This document shows positions 48,954-54,408 of a stretch of DNA of 64,000 bases, piece by piece. A program made the position numbers and the translations under genes. Source of the stretch: Methylobacterium sp. Leaf123 (GTDB lineage: Bacteria > Pseudomonadota > Alphaproteobacteria > Rhizobiales > Beijerinckiaceae); the NCBI RefSeq assembly GCF_001423405.1, contig NZ_LMNS01000039.1:62001-126000 (forward strand), in the 5' to 3' direction. The number at the start of each line of letters is the position of its first letter. The stretch's first letter is position 1. Below the pieces are notes generated by a model that saw only the letters and a list, made by a program, of their open reading frames with translations, was not told the origin of the DNA and did no database searches.

Positions 48954-49955
48954 TCACGCGACGCACGACTTCGGCAGCGTGCAGGCGGTCTGCCCTTCGA
49001 TCTCGATCTGAAGGGTGGTGTGACCGATCCCGAAGCGCGCCCGCAGCGCGTCCGCCGTCTCCTTGAGGAAGAGCCGGCCGTGCGCCGCGTCGGCGATCAC
49101 GAGATGGGCGGTGAGGGCGACTTCGGTGGTGCTCATCGGCCAGATGTGCAGGTCGTGCAGCCCGCGCACGCCGGGCCGGGCGGCGAGATAGGCGCGCACC
49201 GCTTCCGGATCGATGCCGGCCGGCACCGCGGCAAGCGACATCGCCACGCTGTCGCGCAGGAGCCCCCAGGTCGCGGCGATGATGAGCGCGGCGATGGCGA
49301 GGCTCACCAGCGGGTCGATCCAGTCGAAGCCGGTGGCGAGGATGACGAGACCCGCGAGCACCACGCCGGCCGAGACCGCCGCATCGGCCACCATGTGCAG
49401 GTAGGCGCCGCGGATGTTGATGTCGTCCTTGGAACCCGAGGCGAACAGCCACGCGGTGAAGCCGTTGATGAGGATGCCGATGCCGGCCACGACCATCACC
49501 GTGGTGCCGGCGACGGGGGCCGGCTCGAGGAAGCGCTGCACCGCTTCCACGATGATGCCGCCGGTGGCGACCAGAAGCACCACGGCGTTGAACAAAGCGG
49601 CCAGGATCGACGAGCCGCGCAGGCCGTAGGTGAAGCGCGCGGACGGCGCCCGCTTCACCAGCACCGCGGCGATCCAGGCGGCGGCAAGGCCGAGCACGTC
49701 GGAGAGGTTGTGGCCGGCATCGGCCACCAGGGCCATGGAATTCGAGAGCCAGCCATAGGCCGCCTCGACGCCGACGAAGCCGAGATTCAGCGCGATGCCG
49801 ATGGCGAAGGCCGGCCCGAAATTTTTCGGGGCGTGAACGTGGCCAAGTCCACTATGGCTATGCCCCCCATGTCCGTGATCGTGATCATGGGAATGCTCGT
49901 GATCATGACCGGCATGATCGTGGTCGTGTCGATGATCCTGCCGGTGGTCGTCCAT
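48954..49955 (-). CDS. CDF-family divalent cation exporter
   Basis: A 333-aa inner-membrane cation diffusion facilitator of the CzcD/ZitB type. The N-terminus is a His/Asp-rich metal-binding tail ([20 protein letters not shown]). Six TM helices follow, including the metal site motif DAGHNLSD (TM2) and [11 protein letters not shown] (TM5). The cytoplasmic C-terminal domain has [20 protein letters not shown]. It probably exports Zn2+, Co2+ or Cd2+. GAGGG lies 3-5 nt before the ATG at 49955. It lies between maf and aroE; I infer it is not a usual member of the origin-flanking set. Confidence 0.92.
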
Positions 49956-50600: not shown

Positions 50601-51737
50601 TCAGCGCAGGCCGCGCCAGTCGAGCCAGTCGAACAGGAAGTCGATATCCTCGGGCGCCACGGAGAAGAACCCCTCCTCCGAGCGTTCCGAGCCGATCACA
50701 TAGCCGCTGGCATGGCCGAGCGTGTGGTCGATCGAGCTTTGCAGGAAGCCAAGTTCGAGCCCATTGTCGCGCAGGGCCACCACGGTGGTGCCAGGGGGCG
50801 CGAACAGCGAGCCGTGCAGCCCCGAACCGTATTCGCCGATGATCGTGCCGGCCGAGCGGAACAGGGCGATCTGTTCGGGCACGCTCAGCCGCTCGGGCCG
50901 GACGGGGGTGAAGCCGCGGGCCACCGCCTTCGCCTCGAACGCCGCCCGCTCCGCGAGGGTGCGCCGGTTGAGCGTGTCGGCATTGTCCGAGCGGGAGATC
51001 AGGAGTTTTTCGCTCCCCTGTTTCTCGCGGCGGCGACCGAGGCGCCAGCGGGGCGGCCAGCGAGAGCCGGGCGCGGCGCGATCGAGAAGGAAGCGGCGGG
51101 CCTGCCGCATCAGCGGCGAGGCGCGGCTGATGAAGCGGAGCGCCGTCGGCACGAGGAGCGAGCGGCAGACGACGAGATCGCGGCTGCGATCGTAGACGAC
51201 GAGCCGATCCTCGCCGATGCCGAGGAGGCCGAGCCAGTCCCGCGCGAAACGCGGCGTGTCGGCGGGCAGGAGGTAGCGCAGCCGCGTGATGTCGTGGCCG
51301 GCCCGGTCGAGCAGGAACAGCTTGGGCAGGAAATCGACCAGCCAATGGCCGTACATCTGGTGGCCCATGCCGGTCAGCAGCACCACCGGCTCCTCGACGG
51401 TGACCCGCCGCAGATCCGGCAGCCGCGCGGCGATGGCGCGGAAATGCCCCTCGAAATTGACGGAGAAGATGTTGAGCTGGGCGGCGTACTGAAACACGCC
51501 GTCGAGGAGCACAACGCCCTCCTCGGTCACCTCCGCCCCCGGCAATTCGTAGAGGCTCGTCCCGAGGACGGTGGTCTGCTCGTGGTAGACGCGCAGCAGT
51601 TTGGGCGTCACCGCGCCGACCAGCAATTCGGGCGGGGGCGCCCAATCCCGGTAGGACAGGCTGAGATCGGTGCAGCGCCCGCGCCCGGCCCCGACGGTCT
51701 CGCGCAGATCGGCCGCGGGAAAGCCCGCGTCTTCCAT
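50601..51737 (-). CDS. Glycosyltransferase family 61 protein
   Basis: A 378-aa GT61 (DUF563) protein. It has HQMYGHWLVDFLPKLFLLDRAG in the middle, KLLISRSDNADTLNRR, and the C-terminal signature IIGEYGSGLHGSLFAPPGTTVV. It probably adds a sugar during envelope polysaccharide synthesis; the acceptor is unknown. It lies between maf (16 bp) and the PPDK regulator (10 bp), so it is inserted in the origin-flanking operon. Confidence 0.88.
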   Translation of the reverse strand: MEDAGFPAADLRETVGAGRGRCTDLSLSYRDWAPPPELLVGAVTPKLLRVYHEQTTVLGTSLYELPGAEVTEEGVVLLDGVFQYAAQLNIFSVNFEGHFRAIAARLPDLRRVTVEEPVVLLTGMGHQMYGHWLVDFLPKLFLLDRAGHDITRLRYLLPADTPRFARDWLGLLGIGEDRLVVYDRSRDLVVCRSLLVPTALRFISRASPLMRQARRFLLDRAAPGSRWPPRWRLGRRREKQGSEKLLISRSDNADTLNRRTLAERAAFEAKAVARGFTPVRPERLSVPEQIALFRSAGTIIGEYGSGLHGSLFAPPGTTVVALRDNGLELGFLQSSIDHTLGHASGYVIGSERSEEGFFSVAPEDIDFLFDWLDWRGLR

Positions 51738-51747
51738 ATCCCCGCCT

Positions 51748-52578
51748 TCAGGTCGCGATGAACTTGAGGCGGTGCTCGCGGTAGAGGTCGAGGATCGCGG
51801 CGGCCGTCTCCTCGATCGAGCGGCGGGTCACGTCGATGGTCGGCCAGCGGTATTTGGCGCAGAGCCGGCGCGAGGCGGCGATCTCGTCGGAGACCGATTG
51901 CCGATCGACATAGGAGGAGTTGTCGTCGGCCTTCAGGCTGAGCAGGCGGTTCTGGCGGATCTGCACGATCCGCTCCGGGCTGGCGATCAGCCCGACGATC
52001 AGCGCCTTCTTCGCCCGCTCGAAGCTCGGCGGCAGCGGCATCGAGGGGACCAGCGGCAGGTTCGCGGTCTTCAGCCCACGGTTCGCGAGATAGATCGAGG
52101 TCGGCGTCTTCGAGGTGCGGCTGACGCCGACCAGCACCACGTCGGCCTCGTCGAGATCGGCCGGCAGGTTGCCGTCGTCATGGGCCAGGGTGAAGTTCAT
52201 CGCGTCGATGCGCTTGAAGTACTCGGCGTTCAGCATGTGCTGGGCGCCCGGCCGCTCGGTCGAAGTCGCACCGAGATAGGAGCGCAGGAGCGCGTGCACC
52301 GGCTGGAGCACGTTGAGCGTCGGCGAGCCGGTCTCGCGGCAGGCCTCCTCCAGGCGCTCGATCAGCTCGTGGCCGACCAGCGTATAGAGCACGAGGCCCG
52401 GCGCCGCCTTGATCTCGGAGATCACCCGTTCGAGCTGCGCGCCCGAGCGCACCAGCGGATAGACGTGCTCGATCGCCGAGATGCCCTCGTACTGCACCGC
52501 TGCGGCGCGCCCGACATTGATCAGGGTCTCGCCGGTGGAATCCGAGACGAGATGAAGATGGAAATAGCTGCGGCTCAT
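51748..52578 (-). CDS. Pyruvate, phosphate dikinase / PEP synthase regulatory protein
   Basis: A 276-aa bifunctional kinase/pyrophosphorylase of the DUF299 family that switches PPDK or PEP synthase by ADP-dependent phosphorylation. It has [20 protein letters not shown] at the N-terminus and the P-loop-like [21 protein letters not shown], then PLVPSMPLP. Length is normal. It is the first gene left of the putative origin, and hemE lies on the other side, as in Caulobacter and rhizobia. Confidence 0.95.
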
Positions 52579-53325
52579 CGTCAGCCCGTCTCTGCCGTGA
52601 CGCTCGGTCCGGGGCGGCAGACCGCCCCGAGGGATGCTTAGAGCATTTTCTCGGGCAAGCGCGATGCCGAATTGCCGTCGGCCGTGGCGGAGATCGGTTG
52701 CCGTGCGGCCGGACGGGCGATCATCGCGGTGGCCGGATCGCCTCGCCGACCCTCGCGGATATCGCCGAGGCCCGATCCGTGCCGTGATCGAAAGGCGGAG
52801 CCGAACCGCTCCGGCAGGGCGGCGCAGCGGGTGCTGACGCCCCCGATCCAGCGATATTCGATTGGTTTGTCAGTGATTTAGCGTTCCACCACTGCCACGC
52901 TGTCCCCAGGGCGGGTCCAGGGAGTCGATAAGTGGGGAAAACCAGGCCCGATCCGAGCGCGACGGCGGGTTGCCCCGAAATCCATCGACTCCGCCCTCAA
53001 CACCCCGACCTTGCGCACATGGTGGAGTCGCCCGAATGGGAGAATCCGGGACCGAGGCGGCCATCAGGGCAGACGGGCCCACGCAAGCCTCTGCTGAGCT
53101 TGGCCTATCGTGGACATTAGATCCAATCCATTAAGAGGCGATTAACGCCGTGGCGGTGGGGAGGGCCTGTGGACGCGCTTGCGGCATCACGATCCAACGT
53201 CCAAGAGAAAAAACAGAGATTCTAGAATCTCTCTTTCTTTGAATAGGGCCGGGGTGGGGATGGCGCGGTCGCGATCCCTCCGGTCACCCCCCGAACGGCA
53301 ATCAGGCAGGATACGGGCTTCAGGC
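52579..53325. other. Putative chromosomal replication origin (oriC)
   Basis: 747-bp gene-free gap between the minus-strand PPDK-regulator gene and plus-strand hemE, the position of oriC in Caulobacter and many other alphaproteobacteria. It holds a complete CtrA-type site TTAA-N7-TTAAC (53131-53146) and TCCCCA motifs (Caulobacter W-box type) at 52903-52908 and, reversed, at 52933-52938, 53157-53162 and 53255-53260. It also has GATCCAA twice (53120-53126, 53191-53197), a TGTGGAC near-DnaA box (53168-53174) and an AT-rich palindrome (53215-53232). Perfect TTATCCACA boxes were not found. No ORF or RNA gene is convincing. It also contains the hemE promoter. Confidence 0.7.
53131..53146. promoter_or_regulatory. 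CtrA-type binding site
   Basis: TTAA, seven bases (GAGGCGA), then TTAAC: an exact match to the full CtrA consensus. It lies 180 bp upstream of hemE and inside the putative origin. In Caulobacter, CtrA bound at such sites blocks initiation. Confidence 0.65.
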
Positions 53326-54408
53326 ATGGCGGAGGCAAAGACGGCGGCAACGGTGGCGGAAAGGCCGGTGCTGCGGGTGCTGTCGGGAGAGGCGATCTCC
53401 CCTCCCCCGGCCTGGATGATGCGCCAAGCGGGCCGCTACCTGCCGGAATATCGGGCGACCCGAGCCGAGGCCGGCTCCTTCCTCGATCTGTGCTACAACC
53501 CGGCCTTCGCCACCGAGGTGACGCTCCAGCCGATCCGCCGCTTCGGCTTCGAGGCGTCGATCCTGTTCTCCGACATCCTCGTCATCCCGCACGCGCTGGG
53601 CCAGGACGTGCGCTTCGTCGAAGGTGAGGGGCCGCGCCTCGATGCGCTCGAAGGCCGCGCCCAGTTCGACCGCCTCCGCGAGGCGGGCGATCCGGCGATC
53701 TTCTCGCACCTCGCACCGGTCTTCGAGGCGGTCGAACGCATCCGCGGGGCGCTTCCCCACGAGACCACGCTGCTCGGCTTCTGCGGCGCGCCCTGGACCG
53801 TGGCGAGCTACATGATCGGCGGGCGCGGCACGGTGGATCTCGCCCCGGCCCGGACGCTGGCGGCGGCCGACCCCGCTTTGCTCGACGCGCTGCTCGACCG
53901 GCTCGTCACCGTCCAGACCGAATATCTCGTGCGCCAGCTCCGCGCCGGCGCCGACGTGGTGCAGATCTTCGAGTCGCATGCCGGCGTGCTGCCCGTGTCG
54001 AGCGACGGCGACGCCCTCAAGCGCTTCTCGCTCGGTCCGATCGCGCGGATGGTCCAGGGCATCCGGGCGCAGGTGCCGGATGCCAAGATCATCGTCTTCG
54101 CCAAGGGCTCGGGGCTGGAGGGCCATGCCCGCGTCGTGCCCGAGACCGGCGCGAGTGCCGTCGGCGTCGATTGGGGTGTCGATCTCGCGGCCCTGCGAGC
54201 CCGTGTGCCGGCCTCGACGGTCACCCAGGGCAACCTCCACCCCGAGACCCTGATCGAGGGTGGGCGGGCCCTGGACGCGGCTGTGGATGCCATCCTGGCG
54301 GCGACCGAGGGTCTGCCGCACATCTTCAACCTCGGCCACGGCATCACCCCGCAGACGCCGATCGCCCATGTCGAGCAGATGCTGGCCCGGCTCAGAGGCG
54401 GCCGGTGA
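53326..54408 (+). CDS. hemE: Uroporphyrinogen decarboxylase
   Basis: Decarboxylates uroporphyrinogen III to coproporphyrinogen III. The 360-aa protein has PPAWMMRQAGRYLPEYRATR near residue 30, FSDILVIPHALGQ, the signature GFCGAPWTVASYMIGG, and VDWGVDL. Length is typical. The ATG at 53326 gives the normal N-terminus; open codons upstream extend into the origin and are not used. The stop overlaps the next gene's GTG by four bases. Confidence 0.97.
   Translation: MAEAKTAATVAERPVLRVLSGEAISPPPAWMMRQAGRYLPEYRATRAEAGSFLDLCYNPAFATEVTLQPIRRFGFEASILFSDILVIPHALGQDVRFVEGEGPRLDALEGRAQFDRLREAGDPAIFSHLAPVFEAVERIRGALPHETTLLGFCGAPWTVASYMIGGRGTVDLAPARTLAAADPALLDALLDRLVTVQTEYLVRQLRAGADVVQIFESHAGVLPVSSDGDALKRFSLGPIARMVQGIRAQVPDAKIIVFAKGSGLEGHARVVPETGASAVGVDWGVDLAALRARVPASTVTQGNLHPETLIEGGRALDAAVDAILAATEGLPHIFNLGHGITPQTPIAHVEQMLARLRGGR

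Follow-up and report, generated by a model that had tools for sequence, protein, structure and literature searches.

A Cori-like candidate replication origin beside hemE in a Methylorubrum-type bacterium and its distance from parS and the KOPS switch

Known origins and the hemE locus

The origin of a bacterial chromosome and its segregation axis normally lie too close together to be distinguished; in Caulobacter, parS reportedly sits ~8 kb from the origin. The Caulobacter origin, Cori, lies between hemE and a COG1806 gene and carries sites for DnaA, CtrA and IHF (PMC1914354). Its W-box has the sequence TCCCCA and its G-box the sequence TGATCCACA (PMC4285127). In P. aeruginosa, parS must lie within a competence zone of ~650 kb around oriC, and the same study cites work in which Caulobacter parS was moved 400 kb without a defect (PMC5098823). 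Across the alphaproteobacteria, nearly every genome has parAB near ori, although exceptions exist, also among Rhizobiales; in that survey, whose text does not mention Methylobacterium, ori was taken from Ori-Finder and parAB was suggested as an ori anchor (PMC8116508). The polar sequences that orient FtsK, known as KOPS, read GGGNAGGG, and in P. aeruginosa PAO1-UW, which has unequal arms, KOPS polarity follows dif (PMC6199493). Among the matches listed for the open-licence literature, as judged by titles and the beginnings of abstracts, we found no description of oriC in Methylobacterium or Methylorubrum.

The DNA analyzed here, called the window, is a 64-kb stretch that corresponds to positions 62001-126000 of contig C39, which belongs to a 40-contig draft genome (G000). 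The best matches of its ppsR among named records are from Methylorubrum species. The original prediction placed a chromosomal origin in the gap at 52579-53325 of the window, between a DUF299 regulator gene and hemE, with maf, aroE, coaE and dnaQ to the left. Those gene identities hold, with two extra ORFs interrupting the series. The left neighbor is ppsR (51748..52578, minus strand), a DUF299/COG1806 regulator of PPDK/PEPS (NCBIfam NF003742, 342 bits), and the right neighbor is hemE (53326..54408, plus strand; TIGR01464, 348 bits). The gene directions are also as described, with ppsR, maf, aroE, coaE and dnaQ all on the minus strand and hemE and hemJ on the plus strand. Two ORFs break the leftward run: one (50601-51737) encodes a protein that matched no NCBIfam model, and the other, from our reading of the ORF list, is a cation-efflux-type ORF with its end at 48954. 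The gap is intergenic and sits beside hemE and a COG1806 gene, the location that characterizes Cori-like origins, and hemE and ppsR are adjacent in 79 of the 80 loci fetched from relatives.

Flanking by hemE and/or a DUF299/COG1806 gene is shared with Cori and with the predicted origins of Rickettsia and Wolbachia, and the gap also shares with Cori a CtrA site of the form TTAA-N7-TTAA, weak TCCCCA W-boxes and an AT-rich stretch (PMC1914354, PMC4285127). Because gene neighbors, CtrA site, W-boxes and AT-rich stretch all match Cori, we judge the conserved core of the gap (52895-53265) to be the Cori-like chromosomal oriC of this Methylorubrum-type bacterium, with a probability of roughly three in four.

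Motifs and conservation of the gap

The gap consists of a poorly conserved spacer (52579..52894), which is gapped in most of 31 aligned genomes, and a conserved core (52895..53265) that forms the origin-like element and carries invariant motif footprints. Motif scans recovered everything that had been reported for the gap: a full CtrA site, four TCCCCA motifs, two GATCCAA motifs and an AT-rich palindrome. The first W-box is at 52903..52908 (plus strand), the second is included in a degenerate DnaA box, TTTTCCCCA, at 52933..52941 (minus strand), and the third and fourth are at 53157..53162 and 53255..53260 (both minus strand). In the 31-genome alignment the genus consensus at 52933..52941 is TTATCCACA, where the window reads TTTTCCCCA. 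The reported absence of exact TTATCCACA extends over the entire 64-kb window, and unlike in Cori, none of the 9-mers in the window's gap comes within one mismatch of a DnaA box. GATCCA occurs at 52845, 53120 and 53191, with the last two extending to the G-box-like GATCCAA (53120..53126 and 53191..53197, plus strand). Between them lie the sole full CtrA site in the window (53131..53145, plus strand), compared with five such sites in Cori, and TGTGGAC (53168..53174, minus strand), the core of a DnaA-box-like site (GTCCACA) seen in the alignments. The two arms of an inverted repeat, GGAGTCGAT (52921..52929) and ATCGACTCC (52984..52992), each contain a GANTC site and are invariant at most columns across the 31 aligned genomes, and a third GANTC site falls within the conserved sequence GGGAGAATCCGGGAC at 53038..53052 (all plus strand). 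By composition and alignment, the stretch at 53201..53245 (69% AT) is a candidate unwinding element. It contains the perfect 18-bp palindrome AGAGATTCTAGAATCTCT (53215-53232), and equally AT-rich windows occur at only two places in the 64-kb window, this 45-bp stretch being one of them.

Loss of the 52.9-53.3 kb motifs in close relatives would have counted against the original prediction; when the check was run, their conservation was strong. A search with the core at E <= 0.001 returned matches in 108 of 111 genus genomes, many of them partial and a few weak. At that threshold G033, G036 and G093 gave no match, although the gap of G036 has a CtrA site and an exact DnaA box. A first set of excised gaps came from 31 genomes, after L115 was removed from 32 as the same genome as L010; the full CtrA site is present in 31/31 and exact TTATCCACA in 8/31. 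The near-invariant blocks in their alignment are GTCC at 52902, the inverted repeat GGAGTCGAT/ATCGACTCC with its GANTC sites, GAGAATCCGGGA, the CtrA site, TGTGGAC, the AT-rich stretch and GTGGGGAT. The second set comprised 79 loci, among them MAGs, Microvirga and one Enterovirga, and probably shares species with the first; of these loci, 77 have the full CtrA site, 72 have a DnaA box with at most one mismatch and 23 have an exact box. Judged by these alignments, the gap is a conserved non-coding element.

Two genomes depart from this arrangement. L168 (Methylorubrum podarium), kept outside the 79 loci with hemE out of reach, has no hemE or core motifs within 2.5 kb of ppsR; the genes upstream of its ppsR (L168 1-2500) correspond to 43-44 kb of the window. 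With these genes there in place of the core and hemE, a rearrangement breakpoint is placed in the spacer left of the core. In G100, a genus member assembled as one contig, two partial core copies (C1:821074-821233 and C1:933784-933943; 79-80% identity) lie ~113 kb apart, both equivalent to window positions 53103-53263, from the CtrA site to the AT-rich stretch.

Within the window's own Methylorubrum group, we compared the window with ten relatives (11 sequences, 55 pairs). Mean identity of the spacer at 52579-52840 is 56% and exceeds that of fourfold sites in 0/55 pairs, and the mean identity of the core is 0.806 versus 0.809 at the fourfold sites of ppsR. As the core mean only equals the fourfold sites, constraint resides in the motif blocks and not in the mean. 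All four TCCCCA W-boxes are unchanged in 11/11 sequences while the spacer drifts, and TCC[AC]CA motifs number 5-6 in this group versus mostly 2-4 elsewhere. The exact DnaA box, in contrast to Cori, is found in none of the ten relatives; four have a box with at most one mismatch and six have none. As far as these sequences indicate, the strong DnaA box is decayed or lost in the Methylorubrum group.

The motif content was compared with dinucleotide shuffles. The gap has five TCC[AC]CA per 400 bp, which ranks first of 17389 windows on C39 and is reached by 1/100 shuffles of the window's gap, and a full CtrA site arose in 0/100. TCCACA and GANTC are not beyond chance in the window's gap (22/100 and 24/100 shuffles reach their counts), leaving TCC[AC]CA, TCCCCA and the CtrA site as the only motifs that exceed shuffles in this gap alone. 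Across the gaps of the 31 genomes, TCC[AC]CA occurs 112 times versus a shuffle mean of 18 (maximum 29), DnaA boxes with at most one mismatch occur 33 times versus a mean of 0.7 (maximum 4), and the excess of GANTC is also large. The exact DnaA box is sparse, with 3-8 per genome in the eight genomes searched whole.

Strand polarity and the parS region

A minimum of GC skew had been expected at the gap, and this expectation failed: across the window, cumulative GC skew reaches its maximum there. In sampled stretches, skew at fourfold sites tracks gene direction with no visible replication component, and for this reason GC skew is uninformative here and was dropped as a test. The 16S rRNA was also considered as a strand marker but was found in 1/11 genomes and was unusable. 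We then turned to strand-polar octamers, ranked in 15 far stretches of G005 (four contigs, the main one of 5.01 Mb). The polar octamers were GGGCAGGG (33:3) and GGGGAGGG (23:2), with the motif GGG[CG]AGGG, and both are forms of KOPS (PMC6199493). This ranking is partly circular, since the arms had been oriented by a KOPS switch already seen.

On C39, where the gap lies at ~114.6-115.3 kb and parS at 287236, the KOPS minimum falls at 295992-299591, ~182 kb to the right of the gap and 9-12 kb past parS. In G005 the KOPS switches are at ~4.30 Mb (4300476-4302684) and ~1.77 Mb, with parS at 4.3125 Mb and the gap at 4.529 Mb, ~227 kb from the former switch. G036 flips at 1578652-1582005 and has its parS sites at 1581019 and 1583057; its gap lies at 1153 kb. 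A polarity switch at the gap, of the kind that commonly but not by definition marks a chromosomal oriC, was not found. In G019, where parS is 18 kb from the gap, KOPS cannot separate the two positions. A fixed-rate change point exaggerates the contrast, and the free-rate version is preferred; with it, the gap falls below the best position by 6.6 (C39), 8.5 (G005) and 15.6 (G036, over 0.1-2.82 Mb) log units. The parS site falls short of the best change point by 4.3 units in G000 and 2.9 in G005, placing the switch slightly beyond parS in these two genomes. With GGGCAGGG alone the free-rate change point resolves nothing, and with GGGNAGGG the support interval on C39 stretches to 103573-302461, with the gap itself 4.1 units down.

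The KOPS switches of G005 give arms of 2.53 + 2.48 Mb, and the gap would give 2.76 + 2.25 Mb. The dif pattern was found in 0/11 genomes, so the terminus is placed by KOPS only, in G005, where the point opposite dif is at 4.27 Mb. In 40 sampled stretches of a single G036 chromosome, KOPS polarity switches three times in the sense of an origin and three times in that of a terminus, making the clean G036 flip at parS weaker evidence than it appears. With G036 heavily rearranged and G000 and G005 near relatives, the three genomes are not three clean independent tests. The multiple switches of G036 point to large inversions or a fused replicon.

We searched for parS in 31 genomes picked for few contigs, the window's own included. 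Of these, 22 had an exact parS, 21 of them in the genus, and nine had none. Each of the 21 genus genomes has an exact parS on the contig that carries the core, 18-427 kb away (nearest sites at about 18, 45, 47, 49, 58, 84, 86, 89, 96, 97, 131, 168, 172, 181, 205, 216, 232, 258, 315, 402 and 427 kb); in G065, from another genus, it is ~4-6 kb away. The sole exact parS of the window's genome is ~172 kb from the gap, unlike in Caulobacter, and outside the ~20 kb within which parS usually accompanies oriC. The nearest parS lies on the hemE side in G000, G005, G010, G018, G019, G026, G027 and G036; in G007 the nearest parS is 97 kb off, on the ppsR side. The parS cluster includes parB, mnmG, mnmE and leuS by Pfam and parA by position and tblastn, and its arrangement differs among G000/G005, G019 and G036. 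A short ORF resembling a DUF6894 gene and an AT-rich spacer lie between mnmG and mnmE (L081:3300-4040; C39:289300-290040).

Separate or relocated origin

Motif conservation, as read from these genomes, says that the hemE element would be a working origin of the DnaA/CtrA type, G036 included, and KOPS polarity says that the chromosome axis lies near parS. These signals are compatible if the position of the axis is tied to the centromere, or to the point opposite dif, rather than to the origin; they conflict if polarity marks the true origin. This leaves two possibilities: a separation of the origin from the centromere/KOPS axis, or a working origin that has shifted towards parS. The gap as chromosomal origin is still the best reading and has gained from the conservation, while the skew minimum is absent and the GGG[CG]AGGG polarity switches ~182 kb away.

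Relocation of the working origin to the parS region (~C39:284-302 kb; parB-parA-rsmG-mnmG-mnmE-leuS and genes beyond), with the hemE gap an ancestral origin kept for other reasons, is in our judgment unlikely, though it is the most substantial of the rival explanations. It would account for the positions of the KOPS switches in C39, G005 and G036 and for the balanced arms of G005, and the Methylorubrum group has lost the strong DnaA box. Between gap and parS, 60% of coding length is oriented as it would predict in G000 and G005, and 50% in G036; this support is weak because the far arms of G005 are only 57% and 51% leading in the same count. The DnaA-box comparison divides by genome. By 9-mer score, the best near-parS window beats the gap in G000 (109th versus 385th of 6787) and G005 (499th versus 735th of 22892), but in G036, over sampled stretches, the gap is the top of 7760 windows, and in G019 it is twelfth of 7760, tied with the top score, far ahead of near-parS windows in both. 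Since the gap of G036 tops its ranking with parS 427 kb off, the element is undecayed there. Also against a shift, the Methylorubrum group retains the gap's W-boxes and CtrA site with little or no change. Across four genomes the length of the mnmG-mnmE spacer ranges from about 0.2 to 1.9 kb (1.9 kb in G005). At the KOPS minimum, the G000 and G005 spacers align well with each other but poorly with that of G019, and inspection by eye revealed no DnaA boxes there. In 282-304 kb of C39, around parS, no 400-bp window has more than two TCC[AC]CA, versus five in the gap, and no origin-like intergenic stretch was seen near parS in the mnmG-mnmE and YkuD-regulator spacers or in windowed motif counts.

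CtrA sites occur at promoters too, and the element sits between two divergent genes, so it could serve as a promoter region of hemE and ppsR under CtrA control and play no part in replication. We consider this very improbable, as DnaA-type motifs over ~360 bp, GANTC sites, an inverted repeat and an AT-rich stretch exceed what a promoter needs, and the DnaA-box enrichment over 31 genomes is specific. An origin at dnaA deserves hardly any weight. In 5/10 relatives searched, the gene is located in the first 1.7 kb of a contig, which probably reflects an annotation habit, and G000, G005 and G027 have a pair of exact DnaA boxes ~5-7 kb from dnaA, but the other five genomes searched lack such a pair, dnaA is on a contig other than C39, and in G005 it is at 0.78 Mb, within uniform KOPS polarity. 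The DnaA ATPase family also has 14 matches in G018 and 25 in G010, all but one in each genome weak and many in repeated copies; the weak ones are probably IstB-like transposition proteins.

If the hemE gap is the origin, we propose that DnaA would assemble on a mostly weak array of TCCCCA W-boxes, GTCCACA and GATCCAA and, once assembled, open the AT-rich stretch (53201-53245). Initiation would be restrained by CtrA bound between the DnaA sites, at 53131-53145, and CcrM methylation of the GANTC sites may contribute timing. With parS and the KOPS switch ~170-180 kb rightward, oriC and the segregation axis would be separated. Extended to Methylorubrum and Methylobacterium, this becomes a tentative proposal that we hold at clearly less than even odds: the hemE-gap origin and the segregation axis lie 18-427 kb apart, with KOPS organized around parS or the point opposite dif. 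Were KOPS polarity organized around the centromere, the direction of FtsK pumping would be as well, and not around oriC. As in P. aeruginosa, parS would then be tolerated within a few hundred kb of oriC, and the 427-kb maximum is comparable, but displacements there were engineered, whereas the 18-427 kb distances in 21 genus genomes are natural (PMC5098823). PAO1-UW likewise indicates that KOPS polarity can uncouple from equal replication arms, although there the terminus-side switch is displaced and here the origin-side switch is away from the origin-like element (PMC6199493).

An origin-like gap ~170-180 kb from both parS and the polarity switch makes this locus a useful case for testing the linkage of origin and centromere. 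If the hemE gap is active, the genus would be a natural experiment in which origin-centromere distance varies by species, and it would reveal which of the two, origin or centromere, FtsK polarity follows. It would also be a warning against the use of parAB as an origin anchor in alphaproteobacteria (PMC8116508). The origin would be one that apparently depends on weak DnaA sites of the W type, and the gap is a candidate from which chromosomal replicons for methylotrophs could be constructed.
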